From Notoacmeibacter marinus (GTDB lineage: Bacteria > Pseudomonadota > Alphaproteobacteria > Rhizobiales > Rhizobiaceae): a stretch of DNA of 64,000 bases. Positions 52,029 through 58,345 of the stretch are shown here, piece by piece. The number at the start of each line of letters is the position of its first letter. Within the stretch, counting starts at the first letter, position 1. The notes beneath the pieces are model-generated. The model saw only the letters and a list, made by a program, of their open reading frames with translations, was not told the DNA's origin and searched no databases. Location of the stretch: NCBI RefSeq assembly GCF_002238045.1, contig NZ_NBYO01000002.1:496001-560000 (forward strand), written 5' to 3'. The translations under genes were made by a program, and so were the position numbers.

Positions 52029-52709
52029 ATGGCTTCGGACGACAACGCCAGGCAAAGCACCAGAACACTGACGCAGCCCTGGGTTTTGAAGATGCTCGGA
52101 TGGTTTGCACTCGCCTGCTGCGTTTTCGTTGCCGCCACCGATCTCATTCTCGGCTTTTTCCTGCAGAAGGACTATTCGCCGATCTCCGATACGATCAGCG
52201 ATCTGGCGGCGGGTGGGCGTTATGCCATATGGCAGGACTTCGCCATGGAAGCGTTTGCTATCGCTGTCGTCCTGACCGGTATCGGCCTACTTCTGGCCCG
52301 TCGCAGCGGCGCTCGCTGGATCGCCGGGGCGGCGGCGATGATTCTCACCGGCGTCCTAGTCTTCTTCATTGCACGGTGGGACGAATATGGCGATCTGGAC
52401 GAAGGCGGTTGGGTTCTGCACTACCGGATGGTTTATCTGATGGCGGCTCTGGTTCCGGCAAGCCTGCTGCTGCTTCGACGGGACATTGCTCGCCGATCCG
52501 ATCACGACCGGGCGATCCGCATCGTCTTCGTGGCCCTGGCGGCCCTGTGGGTCTTGGGTGCGCCGATCTTCTATCTCATGGATACGGCCTTCGACGGCCT
52601 GGTCGAACGGGCCCTCGCCGCAGTCATGCTGGTCTGGATTGCGACCTGCGCGCGTTCTTTGACAAAAGAGCGACAGTTGGACGACGATGGCGGCACGAGC
52701 CCGTTGTGA
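52029..52709 (+). CDS. DUF998-like six-TM membrane protein
   Basis: A 226-residue protein with about six hydrophobic segments (near residues 21-45, 70-95, 100-125, 135-155, 170-190 and 195-215). The early segment contains DYSPISDTISDLAAGG, a DUF998-type motif. Such proteins are poorly characterised inner-membrane proteins. The start overlaps none of the leuA leader but is divergent from it. It ends 6 bases from the convergent CDF transporter stop. Function unknown. Confidence 0.75.
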   Translation: MASDDNARQSTRTLTQPWVLKMLGWFALACCVFVAATDLILGFFLQKDYSPISDTISDLAAGGRYAIWQDFAMEAFAIAVVLTGIGLLLARRSGARWIAGAAAMILTGVLVFFIARWDEYGDLDEGGWVLHYRMVYLMAALVPASLLLLRRDIARRSDHDRAIRIVFVALAALWVLGAPIFYLMDTAFDGLVERALAAVMLVWIATCARSLTKERQLDDDGGTSPL

Positions 52710-53700: not shown

Positions 53701-54645
53701 CTACTGGCAAAGGCGGTAGCCGCTGCTGCGCTTGATGACGTCGAAATGCAGATGATCGTCGTGATAGTCATCCGAACCCGGCCCGAGCACCGTCGTGAAG
53801 TGAAGGCACCCGCCCGCTTGCACGGTTCGCTGAAAGGCTTCCTGCATCGTGCCCTTGCCGGCGCGCGGAATGATCGGCAGCGGCTTGTGACCTTCGAAAG
53901 CGAAGCGAATAATGTCGATAGCCTGGCCTTTGGCGTGTTCGCTGAGTTTGCCGGTCGGCCGATTGTTGCGCCGCCGGCACACATAGGTGGAGGCATGGGT
54001 GATTTCGCTCAGCCGAACATCCGGGCCGAGTGCAGCGGCACTGGGTTGCACGACGCCCCGCACCCAACGGGCCAGAGCCAAAGCCACATCGCAGGTCATC
54101 TGCGTGCGCGGCCGTATCTTGATCCCGTCGATTTCGGAGACATTGTAGGGACGCGCCACGCCGCAACCGTTCTTGCCGGCGATCGGGTCGAGTACCTCGA
54201 ACGTGGCGCCGAGCGCTTTCAGGTCTTTTTCGCACCGTGTGACTTCGACAGCGGACATGCCCTCCGGCACGGTTTCGACCGGTGGAGCAGGAGCGGCGGC
54301 ATCATTCTTCGCATCGTCAGCCGGGCCATCCTCGGATTCGCTGTCATCTTTCGGCGGAGCGCTGTCTTCCTCGGCGTCATTGTCCGGCGCGTCATCCGGT
54401 CGGGAGCGGGGAAGCGGCGGTTTGGCCTTATCGTCCGGCTTGTCCGACGCCGCCGCATTGTCTGCGTCGGCTCGACCGTCCGTCTCGTCAGTCGTATCAT
54501 CTCCATCGGTCGGCCGCGATTCCGGCAATGGTGGATCGATGTCACCCGCCTGCGTGCCTTCCTGGGCGAAACCGACCAATGGATGCGCCATCGCTCCGGC
54601 GACCATGAGACAGCTACCGAGAGCCAGTGCGCGTAGAAGTTTCAT
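53701..54645 (-). CDS. Exported extensin-like C-terminal domain protein
   Basis: A 314-residue exported protein: a signal peptide (MKLLRALALGSCLMVAGAMA), then a 100-residue acidic, Pro/Asp-rich disordered linker (about 35-130), then the extensin-like C-terminal domain. That domain shows RCEKDLKALGATFEV, CGVARPYNV, SEHAKGQAIDI and DDYHDDHLHFDV with the His/Asp metal-type motif. This bacterial domain is related to peptidoglycan peptidases of the VanY/DacB type. Together with the adjacent L,D-transpeptidase it suggests cell-wall work. No ribosome site strong enough to exclude other starts. Confidence 0.85.
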   Translation of the reverse strand: MKLLRALALGSCLMVAGAMAHPLVGFAQEGTQAGDIDPPLPESRPTDGDDTTDETDGRADADNAAASDKPDDKAKPPLPRSRPDDAPDNDAEEDSAPPKDDSESEDGPADDAKNDAAAPAPPVETVPEGMSAVEVTRCEKDLKALGATFEVLDPIAGKNGCGVARPYNVSEIDGIKIRPRTQMTCDVALALARWVRGVVQPSAAALGPDVRLSEITHASTYVCRRRNNRPTGKLSEHAKGQAIDIIRFAFEGHKPLPIIPRAGKGTMQEAFQRTVQAGGCLHFTTVLGPGSDDYHDDHLHFDVIKRSSGYRLCQ

Positions 54646-54651
54646 ACCGGA

Positions 54652-55620
54652 TCAATCCTTGAATTCGACCGTGGTGCCCTGCTCGACGGCCTCAGCCAGT
54701 TCCAGCGCGTCCCAGTTCGTCAGGCGCACGCAGCCATGGCTTGCCGTCTTTCCGATCTCGGCAGGGTAAGGGGTGCCGTGAAGCCCGTAGGTGGGCTTGG
54801 ACAGATCGATCCACACCAGACCGACAGGTCCGTTCGGCCCCGCGGGAATGGCGAAGGTCTCTTCAATATCGGATTCGGGAATATTCTTCGGATCGAACGT
54901 GTAGGTCGGTTCGATCGCCACCGCATTCACCTCCACCGTGCCCGATGGGCTGGGCGTATCGTCCGAACCGATCGTCGTGGGATAGGACAGGACGATCCTG
55001 TCCTGATCGTCATAGGCCAGAATGCGCGAACGCCCCTTATCGGCGACAATGCGAGCGACGCTAGCGCCCTTGTTTGCGCCCGGATCAGCCACAACGATCG
55101 TGTCGCCCTCCTGGAACCGGCGGTCCGGATTGACCGCTTTCAGAAAGTCCTCGTCCATGTGGAACTTCTCGGCCAGCGCCTCGCTCGCCGAGGTGAAGCC
55201 GAGCCACTCCTCTTCAGCCATCTCCTTGTAATCTTCGGGATTGCTTTCCTTCAGCCGTTCCAGATCGGACGCCTGGATGGTGTAATCCATCATGGCCGGT
55301 CGGTCCTTGCTCTCCAGCGCGTTCCAGATCTCCTCATCCATCTTCCCATCGACGGTGAACCCGCTCATTTCCTCGAAACCGGTCAGCGCATCGCGAACAT
55401 TGCCGCCGGAATAGCCATCGATCACACCCGGCGAAGAACCGTTTCGGTCGAGCAGGATCTGTATGCGCGTGGTAATGGGGCTCTGGCCTTCCGGCAGTGC
55501 CCCTCCGCTATAGGACGCTTCGTTGACGGACTGCATCGAAAGTTCGGCAGTGGCCGCAGGCCCGGTCAGCGAAACAAGAGCGACACCGGCCGCCAGAAAA
55601 CCGAAAATCCGAGACGTCAT
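54652..55620 (-). CDS. L,D-transpeptidase (YkuD domain)
   Basis: A 322-residue exported enzyme that crosslinks peptidoglycan or attaches proteins to it. Signal peptide MTSRIFGFLAAGVALVSLTGPAATA; a helical region follows, then a LysM-like/peptidoglycan binding type segment, then the YkuD catalytic domain. The active site is HGCVRL with Cys297 and His295. GGAGG with 8-base spacing sets the start at 55620. It is followed by the extensin-like gene 6 bases downstream, likely a cell-wall operon. Confidence 0.92.
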   Translation of the reverse strand: MTSRIFGFLAAGVALVSLTGPAATAELSMQSVNEASYSGGALPEGQSPITTRIQILLDRNGSSPGVIDGYSGGNVRDALTGFEEMSGFTVDGKMDEEIWNALESKDRPAMMDYTIQASDLERLKESNPEDYKEMAEEEWLGFTSASEALAEKFHMDEDFLKAVNPDRRFQEGDTIVVADPGANKGASVARIVADKGRSRILAYDDQDRIVLSYPTTIGSDDTPSPSGTVEVNAVAIEPTYTFDPKNIPESDIEETFAIPAGPNGPVGLVWIDLSKPTYGLHGTPYPAEIGKTASHGCVRLTNWDALELAEAVEQGTTVEFKD

Positions 55621-55884
55621 ACGTGAACCCTCCAAGGAATTGTCCCGACCAACGCCGGGCCACCCTAATTGTTGCCTCATGCAAGAAAGGAACGGCATTC
55701 GGCACGCAATGACAACTTCAGGGTGCAAAAGTCAGAAACGAAAACTTTACCGGGTGCGACTTACAAGGAACCTGCTTCACCGATGGTTCGATCTGGCGCC
55801 ACACGGTGAGCCGGTCTCGTGGAACTGCCCTCTTACCCTCCACGCGGACCGATCAGGCTGCAGCAAACACGCGGCTATTCGACT
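55621..55884. other. Gene-free region upstream of the putative small RNA terminator
   Basis: No coding frame with protein-like composition is present on either strand here. It holds the L,D-transpeptidase promoter side and the 5' part of the putative plus-strand transcript described below. Together with 55885-55993 it is a 373-base stretch between genes. Confidence 0.5.
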
Positions 55885-55924
55885 GGGGGTCTGCCGGTCA
55901 ATGACTAGGGCGGACCCCCTTTTT
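55760..55924 (+). ncRNA. Putative small RNA ending in a strong terminator
   Basis: The terminator at 55885-55924 has no protein gene to serve. Upstream, CGGTC-CGTGGA (55812-55823) pairs with TCCACG-GACCG (55839-55851) around a pyrimidine-rich loop actgccctcttaccc. Small RNAs in rhizobia often carry such pyrimidine loops that base-pair with ribosome sites. The 5' end is unknown; 55760 is only a guess. I could not match it to a known family by eye. Confidence 0.45.
55885..55924 (+). terminator. Strong terminator without an upstream gene
   Basis: GGGGGTCTGCC (55885-55895) pairs with GGCGGACCCCC (55909-55919), 11 bp with one wobble, followed by TTTTT. The nearest plus-strand gene upstream ends at 52709, so it must end an unannotated transcript. 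Confidence 0.8.
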
Positions 55925-55993
55925 CGCTTCAAATGGCAAGCCGTCCTTCAAAGCCGATAGACAAGTGCAACCGCGCGGCCTATGAGGCAGGAC

Positions 55994-56038
55994 ATGAACA
56001 CGCCGCGCATCGAGACTGGGAACTGGTGGCGCCTCTGA
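55994..56038 (+). CDS. trpL: trp leader peptide TrpL
   Basis: A 14-residue peptide MNTPRIETGNWWRL with two tandem Trp codons (56024-56029), ATG 55994 and TGA 56036-56038. AGGCAGGAC provides the ribosome site. It precedes trpEG by 123 bases and an attenuator terminator. The rhizobial model is peTrpL/rnTrpL upstream of trpE(G). Trp starvation should stall the ribosome on the WW pair and prevent termination. The stop codon lies in the loop of a perfect CGCCTC/GAGGCG hairpin (56030-56044). Confidence 0.8.
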   Translation: MNTPRIETGNWWRL

Positions 56039-56056
56039 GAGGCGAGCCGATCCGCA

Positions 56057-56118
56057 TGCATTCTTGATGCAGGCAATTTGGAAGAGGTCGCCATGGAGAT
56101 GTCCGGGGCGGCCTTTTT
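56057..56118 (+). promoter_or_regulatory. Attenuator terminator hairpin of the trpEG leader
   Basis: GGTCGCC (56086-56092) pairs with GGCGGCC (56107-56113), one wobble, followed by TTTTT (56114-56118). Upstream, TGCAT (56057-56061)/ATGCA (56067-56071) gives an alternative hairpin. These are the expected antiterminator and terminator segments of Trp attenuation between trpL and trpEG. Confidence 0.7.
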
Positions 56119-56161
56119 GCTATGAGCCCGGCAATCCTTGGCCAGATCAGGCAGAACGATC

Positions 56162-58345
56162 ATGACGACGCATCGAACATCCCCCCCCCTCCGTATTCAG
56201 ACACGCGGCGGCGTGGCGATCGAACGAGGACGCACTCCCGTGGAATATGAGGGTGCGATCGAACGCTGGATCGATGCGCTGGACAGCCGTCGCGGCGCGG
56301 TCTTCTCGTCCAATTACGAATATCCGGGACGCTATACGCGCTGGGACACGGCCATCGTCGATCCGCCGATCGCGATCGCCGGGCACGGACGACGACTTTC
56401 CATCCGGGCGCTGAACGAGCGCGGACGAGCGATGTTACCCTTTCTGGCCGGCCTGGCGGCCAGCCCCGACGCAGCTCGCATGACAGCGCAGAGCGAAGAT
56501 GAAGTCGCCATCGAAATTGATGAACCCAAGGGCCACTTTACCGAAGAAGATCGCTCGCGCATGCCCAGCGTCTTCACGGTGCTGCGTGCGATCACCGATT
56601 GTTTCCATACAGACGAAGACGAAAATCTCGGCCTTTACGGCGCGTTCGGCTATGATCTGGCGTTCCAGTTCGACCCGGTGACGCAGCGTCTGGACCGGCC
56701 GGACGAGCAGCGCGATCTGCTGCTTTATCTACCGGACGAGATTCTGGTCGTCGATCATTATACCGCGTCGGCCTGGACGGAGGATTATACATTCTCCGGC
56801 GATGGATGGACGACGAAGGGTCGCGCGCGCGACAACCGGCTCGAGCCGTTCCGCTTCGCCGACATCGATCCTCCGCGTAGCGACCATGAGCCGGGCGAAT
56901 ATGCGCGGCTCGTCGGTAGGGCCAAGGAGCATTTCCGCCGCGGGGATCTGTTCGAGGTCGTGCCCGGCCAGACCTTCTACGAAAAGTGCGAGACAGCGCC
57001 CTCGGCAATTTGTCGGCGGCTGAAGGAGACCAACCCCTCACCCTATTCCTTCTTCATCAATCTGGGCGAACAGGAATATCTGATCGGCGCCTCGCCCGAA
57101 ATGTTCGTGCGCGTCAATGGACGGCGGATCGAAACCTGCCCGATTTCCGGTACGATCAAGCGCGGCGCCGACGCCATCGAGGACGCCGAACAGATCCTCA
57201 AACTGCTCAATTCCAAAAAGGATGAGAGCGAACTGACAATGTGTTCGGATGTCGACCGTAACGATAAGAGCCGGGTTTGCGAACCGGGCTCGGTGCGCGT
57301 TGTCGGCCGTCGCCAGATCGAGATGTATTCCCGGTTGATCCATACGGTCGACCACATCGAAGGCCGTTTGCGGGCCGATATGGACGCCTATGACGGCTTC
57401 CTCTCCCATGCCTGGGCCGTCACCGTGACCGGTGCGCCGAAGCTCTGGGCGATGCGTTTTCTGGAAGAGAACGAGAAAAGCCCTCGCGCCTGGTATGGCG
57501 GGGCCGTCGGCATGGTGCATTTCAACGGCAATATGAACACCGGCCTGACCCTGCGCACCATCCGCATCAAGGAAGGCATCGCCGAGGTTCGGGCCGGCGC
57601 GACGCTTCTTTTCGACTCCGTGCCGGAAGACGAGGAAGCTGAAACCGAATTGAAGGCGTCCGCGCTGCGAGCGGCGGTGCGCGAAGCCGGATCGTCCAAT
57701 GCGAATGCGGCTGCGCGATCGGCTGCTCCGGTGGGGGACGGCATCCGCATCCTCCTAGTCGATCACGAGGACAGCTTCGTTCACACGCTGGCCAATTATT
57801 TCCGGCAGACGGGCGCGGAAGTGACGACCGTTCGAACGCCTGTCCCGGAAGCGCTCTTCGAAGAGGTCGATCCCGATCTCGTGGTGCTGTCGCCCGGCCC
57901 CGGCATGCCCAAGGATTTCGACACCAAGCGCACGATCAAGATGGCGCGCGACGCCGACCGGCCCGTTTTCGGCGTTTGTCTCGGCCTCCAGGCGCTGGCG
58001 GAATCCTATGGCGGTTCGCTGCGCACCCTTCACGTTCCGGTGCACGGCAAACCGTCGCGCATTCGGGTCGATGCCCACCGCACCATCTTCTCGGGGCTGC
58101 CGCAGGAGGTCACGGTCGGTCGCTACCATTCCATCTTCGCCGATCTTGCCCGCCTGCCGGACGATTTCGAGGTGACGGCGCAAACGGACGATGGCGTGAT
58201 CATGGCGATCGAACACAAGAGTGAGCCTGTCGCCGCCGTTCAGTTCCATCCGGAATCGATCATGAGCCTCGGTGGAGAGGCCGGGATGAGAATGATCGAG
58301 AATGTGGTGGCGCATCTGCCACGCCGGCGCGGGAACACGGCATGA
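56162..58345 (+). CDS. trpE(G): Anthranilate synthase, fused TrpE-TrpG
   Basis: A 727-residue fusion. The TrpE domain (about 1-510) has the chorismate-binding blocks [46 protein letters not shown] and GAPK. The TrpG amidotransferase domain begins near residue 527 ([21 protein letters not shown]) and has catalytic C606 in FGVCLGLQ, and H696/E698 in QFHPES. It makes anthranilate from chorismate and glutamine. The fusion is typical of rhizobia. Expression is governed by the trpL leader and terminator just upstream. Start at ATG 56162. Confidence 0.97.

Follow-up and report, generated by a model that had tools for sequence, protein, structure and literature searches.

Covarying hairpins upstream of trpL point to a probable unannotated small regulatory RNA gene in Notoacmeibacter

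On the plus strand of the window (the whole 64-kb stretch of DNA analysed here) a strong intrinsic terminator lies in front of the trpL leader without a gene that it might end, raising the question whether it closes an unannotated small RNA (sRNA), as the original prediction held. Reading of the sequence reproduced the proposed 11-bp stem and T5 at 55885-55924 to the base: GGGGGTCTGCC (55885-55895) pairs with GGCGGACCCCC (55909-55919) over 11 bp, including one G-U, and T5 (55920-55924) follows directly 3' of the stem. The surroundings are also as described, with 264 bases free of plus-strand genes between the minus-strand start at 55620 and position 55885, trpL beginning shortly downstream at 55994, and, upstream, no plus-strand ORF counted as a gene closer than the one ending at 52709, approximately 3.2 kb away. 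The terminator belongs to no upstream plus-strand gene and is the element's own. Scanning both strands of the window for a stem of 10 bp or more with a T run gave five matches, this terminator among them and two of the five being one overlapping site; the same scan on 20 first-order Markov sequences gave 0-2 matches (mean 0.2), so that chance seldom produces a terminator of this kind. A simple terminator scan missed 55885-55924 because it allowed only loops of 3-8 bases.

The element was compared with the corresponding region in two further Notoacmeibacter genomes (G001 and G002), the genus belonging to the Hyphomicrobiales. The second strong hairpin of the original prediction, hairpin A (55812-55851, plus strand), is part of the MFE fold. 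Its stem combines CGGTC/GACCG with CGTGGA/TCCACG and presents a 15-nt loop (55824-55838), ACTGCCCTCTTACCC, in which 12 of the 15 bases are pyrimidines, in agreement with the claim of a pyrimidine-rich loop. The MFE fold also contains a tentative 5' hairpin (CACCG...CGGTG, 55770-55811, plus strand), which can form in each species with a differing stem and by itself weakly beats shuffled sequences (z -1.0 to -1.8), and a small third hairpin on the same strand (GGCTGC/GCGGCT, 55856-55876), which is found in the MFE folds of the window and G001, is variable in sequence and was left out of the covariance model described below. Relative to shuffled sequences the plus strand folds with z -2.6 for the region and z -3.75 for 55770-55924; folding of the minus strand is less significant and would carry no T tail, a strong stem followed by a T-run being present on the plus strand only. 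The predicted sRNA would be about 115 nt long if counted from hairpin A and about 155 nt with the 5' hairpin. Consensus promoter scans for the sRNA in the three species gave weak sites only and nothing convincing; in G002 and G001 such sites would place the start 43-44 nt 5' of hairpin A, where the window has none.

Both stems are kept in all three Notoacmeibacter species with compensatory changes. We built a covariance model from the window and G002, which differ by both-side changes already when compared alone, and left G001 unseen. In a search of three loci this two-species model recovered G001 at the syntenic site (31.3 bits, E 1.4e-6), and the site is the model's sole match in that whole genome (E 6.3e-5). 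The resulting alignment of the three species showed pairing in 98.5% of cells, and both partners had changed in 10 of the 22 pairs; these counts are tilted towards structure, since the model used to fit the alignment came from two of its three rows. Shuffles gave 3.3 ± 1.6 both-side changes and none of 500 reached 10, and in register-slid controls pairing fell to 38-52% with 1-2 such pairs. The changes are distributed over both hairpins: hairpin A contributes four (11 pairs, 97% of cells paired) and the terminator six (11 pairs, 100% of cells paired), the terminator stem having a different sequence in each species and always retaining its pairing. A MAFFT alignment of hairpin A alone from the three species was misregistered and was excluded.

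Conservation extends to the loop of hairpin A. The loops of the three aligned species, GGAACTGCCCTCTTACCCTCC, GGGACTGCCCTTAACCTCC and GGAACCGCCCTCAAACCTCC, each with a terminator 3' of it, share the core ACyGCCCU...ACCUCC, which resembles an anti-Shine-Dalgarno (SD) sequence, while the flanks have drifted; each of the three has ACCUCC, which reads ACCCUCC in the window, and its final bases close the stem. Hairpin A and its loop have 46-62% identical columns versus 28% in the upstream spacer and 21% in linker B, an approximately two-fold difference. In the predicted fold the loop is accessible, conserved in three species and complementary to SD sequences. Since the loops differ between species by indels of 1 and 2 bases, any reading frame across them is broken, and the three-species comparison revealed no conserved protein-coding frame across the element. 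What the comparison supports directly is that compensatory changes have kept two stems intact and that the loop core and the synteny are conserved.

We then considered how the element relates to its neighbours. The gene order L,D-transpeptidase, element, trpL, trpE(G) is common to the window, G001 and G002. The L,D-transpeptidase gene (54652-55620, minus strand, start ATG at 55620; Pfam YkuD 1e-21, PG_binding_1 8e-9) is the divergent upstream neighbour in the same position in all three genomes; together with the gene that follows it, for an extensin-like C-terminus protein, it constitutes a minus-strand pair of cell-envelope genes at 53701-55620. Downstream lies the trpL leader peptide ORF (55994-56038, plus strand, MNTPRIETGNWWRL), whose two tandem Trp codons are retained in all three species. 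The trp attenuator and trpE(G) come next, and the encoded TrpE(G) shares 91% identity with its counterpart in Notoacmeibacter sp. MSK16QG-6. A trpL promoter, TAGACA-17 nt-TATGAG (55958-55986, plus strand), begins 34 bases past the T-run of the terminator in the window with ideal spacing, and its counterparts occupy the equivalent site in G001 (TGGACA-17-TATGAG) and G002 (TGGACA-17-TAAGAG). It is separate from the sRNA and constitutes its downstream limit; as it lies 3' of the terminator, the element is a unit of its own outside the trp attenuator. In all three species the start predicted from the 17-nt-spaced promoter is at or beside the trpL ATG, so that trpL is probably leaderless, like rnTrpL of S. 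meliloti, which begins at the trpL ATG (PMC7298713). Promoter, trpL and an attenuator lie within 55958-56120 of the window, and from trpL to the attenuator identity over the three species is 72%. The trpE(G) coding region of the window carries, close to its 5' end, a run of nine C (56181-56189) that is missing in both sisters; such a run might be slippery or sensitive to sequencing, and the frame is open as given.

The element appears to have a narrow distribution. The search with Rfam models that had been suggested for it gave no match: no family reached its gathering score in the window, and none matched at the locus even at E values up to 1 or 5, so the element is not a curated family. BLASTN against 101 relatives returned chance matches only, in coding sequence of G047 and G061, and failed to detect even the sister species, whose copies were found by synteny and the covariance model only. 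Covariance models found no credible member outside the genus in 151 family genomes, 39 relatives and 297 order genomes (overlapping sets); the best matches outside the genus, once inspected, fitted the terminator only or were located in coding sequence and were rejected. The loop pattern, searched in 289 genomes of the class, occurred in the window and in one likely chance match. As far as several hundred Hyphomicrobiales genomes were searched, the element thus seems restricted to Notoacmeibacter.

These comparisons make it very probable that 55770-55924 of the plus strand is a small regulatory RNA gene missing from the annotation. The step from orphan terminator to small RNA made in the original prediction is supported in that both hairpins, for which it had proposed covariation analysis, do covary, and we infer that an RNA is made from this stretch. 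Most likely this RNA would repress one or several mRNAs in trans, probably assisted by Hfq, a reading favoured by the complementarity of ACCUCC to SD sequences, the precedent of ar14/NfeR1, in which anti-SD motifs in loops silence translation (PMC10746234), the presence of Hfq, which is encoded in all three genomes, and the U-tail. On the model of NfeR1 and the AbcR sRNAs, the loop ACyGCCCU...ACCUCC would pair in trans with the SD region of a target mRNA and block its translation, and the U-tail, which is predicted to suit Hfq binding, would stabilise the RNA together with Hfq. We assign a probability of roughly 0.6 to this reading as a whole, i.e. an independently transcribed, genus-restricted sRNA of ~115-160 nt with its own terminator and a loop that masks SD sequences of its targets in trans.

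A pattern search for extended loop complements gave no convincing conserved target: there are a few complements per genome, approximately as many as for a reversed-pattern control, and the sole pair shared between genomes (L167/L169) lies inside a histidine-kinase coding region. At these orthologous sites of two species, GGAGGGTTGAGGGC complements most of the sRNA loop; they are located at the 3' end of the histidine-kinase gene, with a lipoprotein-like gene just downstream, and the sharing probably reflects coding constraint.

Other explanations of the locus were weighed against the same evidence. The element might be an insulating terminator only, which keeps transcription that leaks or diverges from the promoter region of the L,D-transpeptidase gene from reaching the trpL promoter, with a short RNA that has no function. 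The terminator is indeed the strongest and best conserved structure, consensus scans found no convincing sRNA promoter, and most of the folding signal in the sisters comes from the terminator, as the folding energy without it remains significant in the window (z -2.5) but not in G002 (z -0.3) or G001 (z +1.1). Insulation, however, would need neither the four compensatory pairs that hairpin A has of its own nor a loop core conserved beyond its flanks, and we regard this explanation as unlikely, if worth keeping in mind. A role in cis was suggested by the position, as in 3/3 species the trp operon follows directly in the same orientation: a transcript started upstream would enter trpL-trpE(G), and a conditional terminator would add a second layer of control over tryptophan synthesis. 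The separate, ideally spaced trpL promoter that follows the terminator here and in the sisters, the lack of any Rfam riboswitch or leader match and the fact that other family members retain trpL-trpE(G) without the element render this quite improbable.

The L,D-transpeptidase gene, which is always adjacent, could itself be the target if the loop or the 5' part of the RNA paired with its 5' leader as an antisense or cis regulator. In the window ACCCUCCA of the loop can form 8 pairs with the SD sequence of the gene, UGGAGGGU, but the pairing drops to approximately 6 in G002 and 5 in G001 despite the conserved loop, so it is not under selection there and is probably incidental; regulation of this neighbour is thus a reading to which we give little credit. 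That the element is a small protein gene, or a chance set of hairpins in a spacer, seems very improbable: a 32-codon GTG ORF and longer open frames do span it, but the loop indels break them, and the covariation of the stems argues against chance. The trans-acting sRNA remains the preferred reading, and the element resembles an ordinary bacterial sRNA, albeit a new one. It provides a concrete, testable and uncurated sRNA gene confined to one genus, and it illustrates that an orphan terminator spotted by eye can lead to a real gene; the general picture of bacterial RNA regulation is unchanged by it.

Finally, we compared the element with known RNAs, as the original prediction had likened its loop to those of trans-acting rhizobial sRNAs. 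This likeness holds for the anti-SD-like loop with its conserved core and stays a resemblance, since the element is not ar14. With ar14/NfeR1 (RF02344), an anti-SD sRNA of Rhizobiales, it shares the intergenic position, several hairpins, a C/U-rich anti-SD loop and an intrinsic terminator. However, ar14 has three hairpins with CCUCCUCCC in each (PMC10746234, PMC3927594), whereas the element has a single ACyGCCCU...ACCUCC loop, and CCUCCUCCC was not found in 55770-55924 even when one mismatch was allowed. Identity with ar14 was rejected as RF02344 does not match at the locus, and each of the three genomes has a genuine ar14 elsewhere that scores above the cut-off, so that the element is a different RNA. 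These NfeR1-type loci, one clear per Notoacmeibacter genome, are L174 (G000:C2:79789-79916), L173 and L175; weaker matches below the cut-off, e.g. G002:C7:1152409 and G000:C2:687719, may be further anti-SD sRNAs.

AbcR1/AbcR2 (ar15) are trans-acting with anti-SD-like seeds (PMC10746234), a mode of action proposed for the element as well, but the element has no Rfam match, a single locus and another sequence and loop. EcpR1 (SmelC291) likewise combines conserved C-rich hairpin loops with variable closing stems, its loop motifs UCCGCCGCAUCU and UCCUCG (PMC3927594, RFMSmelC291) differing from those of the element. The trp attenuator RNA rnTrpL is also small and is encoded next to the element in the same orientation, but it starts at the trpL ATG (PMC7298713), 69 bases downstream of the point where the element stops. 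A possible, if doubtful, scenario is that a lineage-specific anti-SD sRNA arose beside trpL in the ancestor of Notoacmeibacter and works alongside the ancestral ar14, splitting its targets or adding new ones. As the element coexists with the older and similarly looped ar14, the two together could show how new sRNAs with seeds for ribosome binding sites enter regulatory networks.
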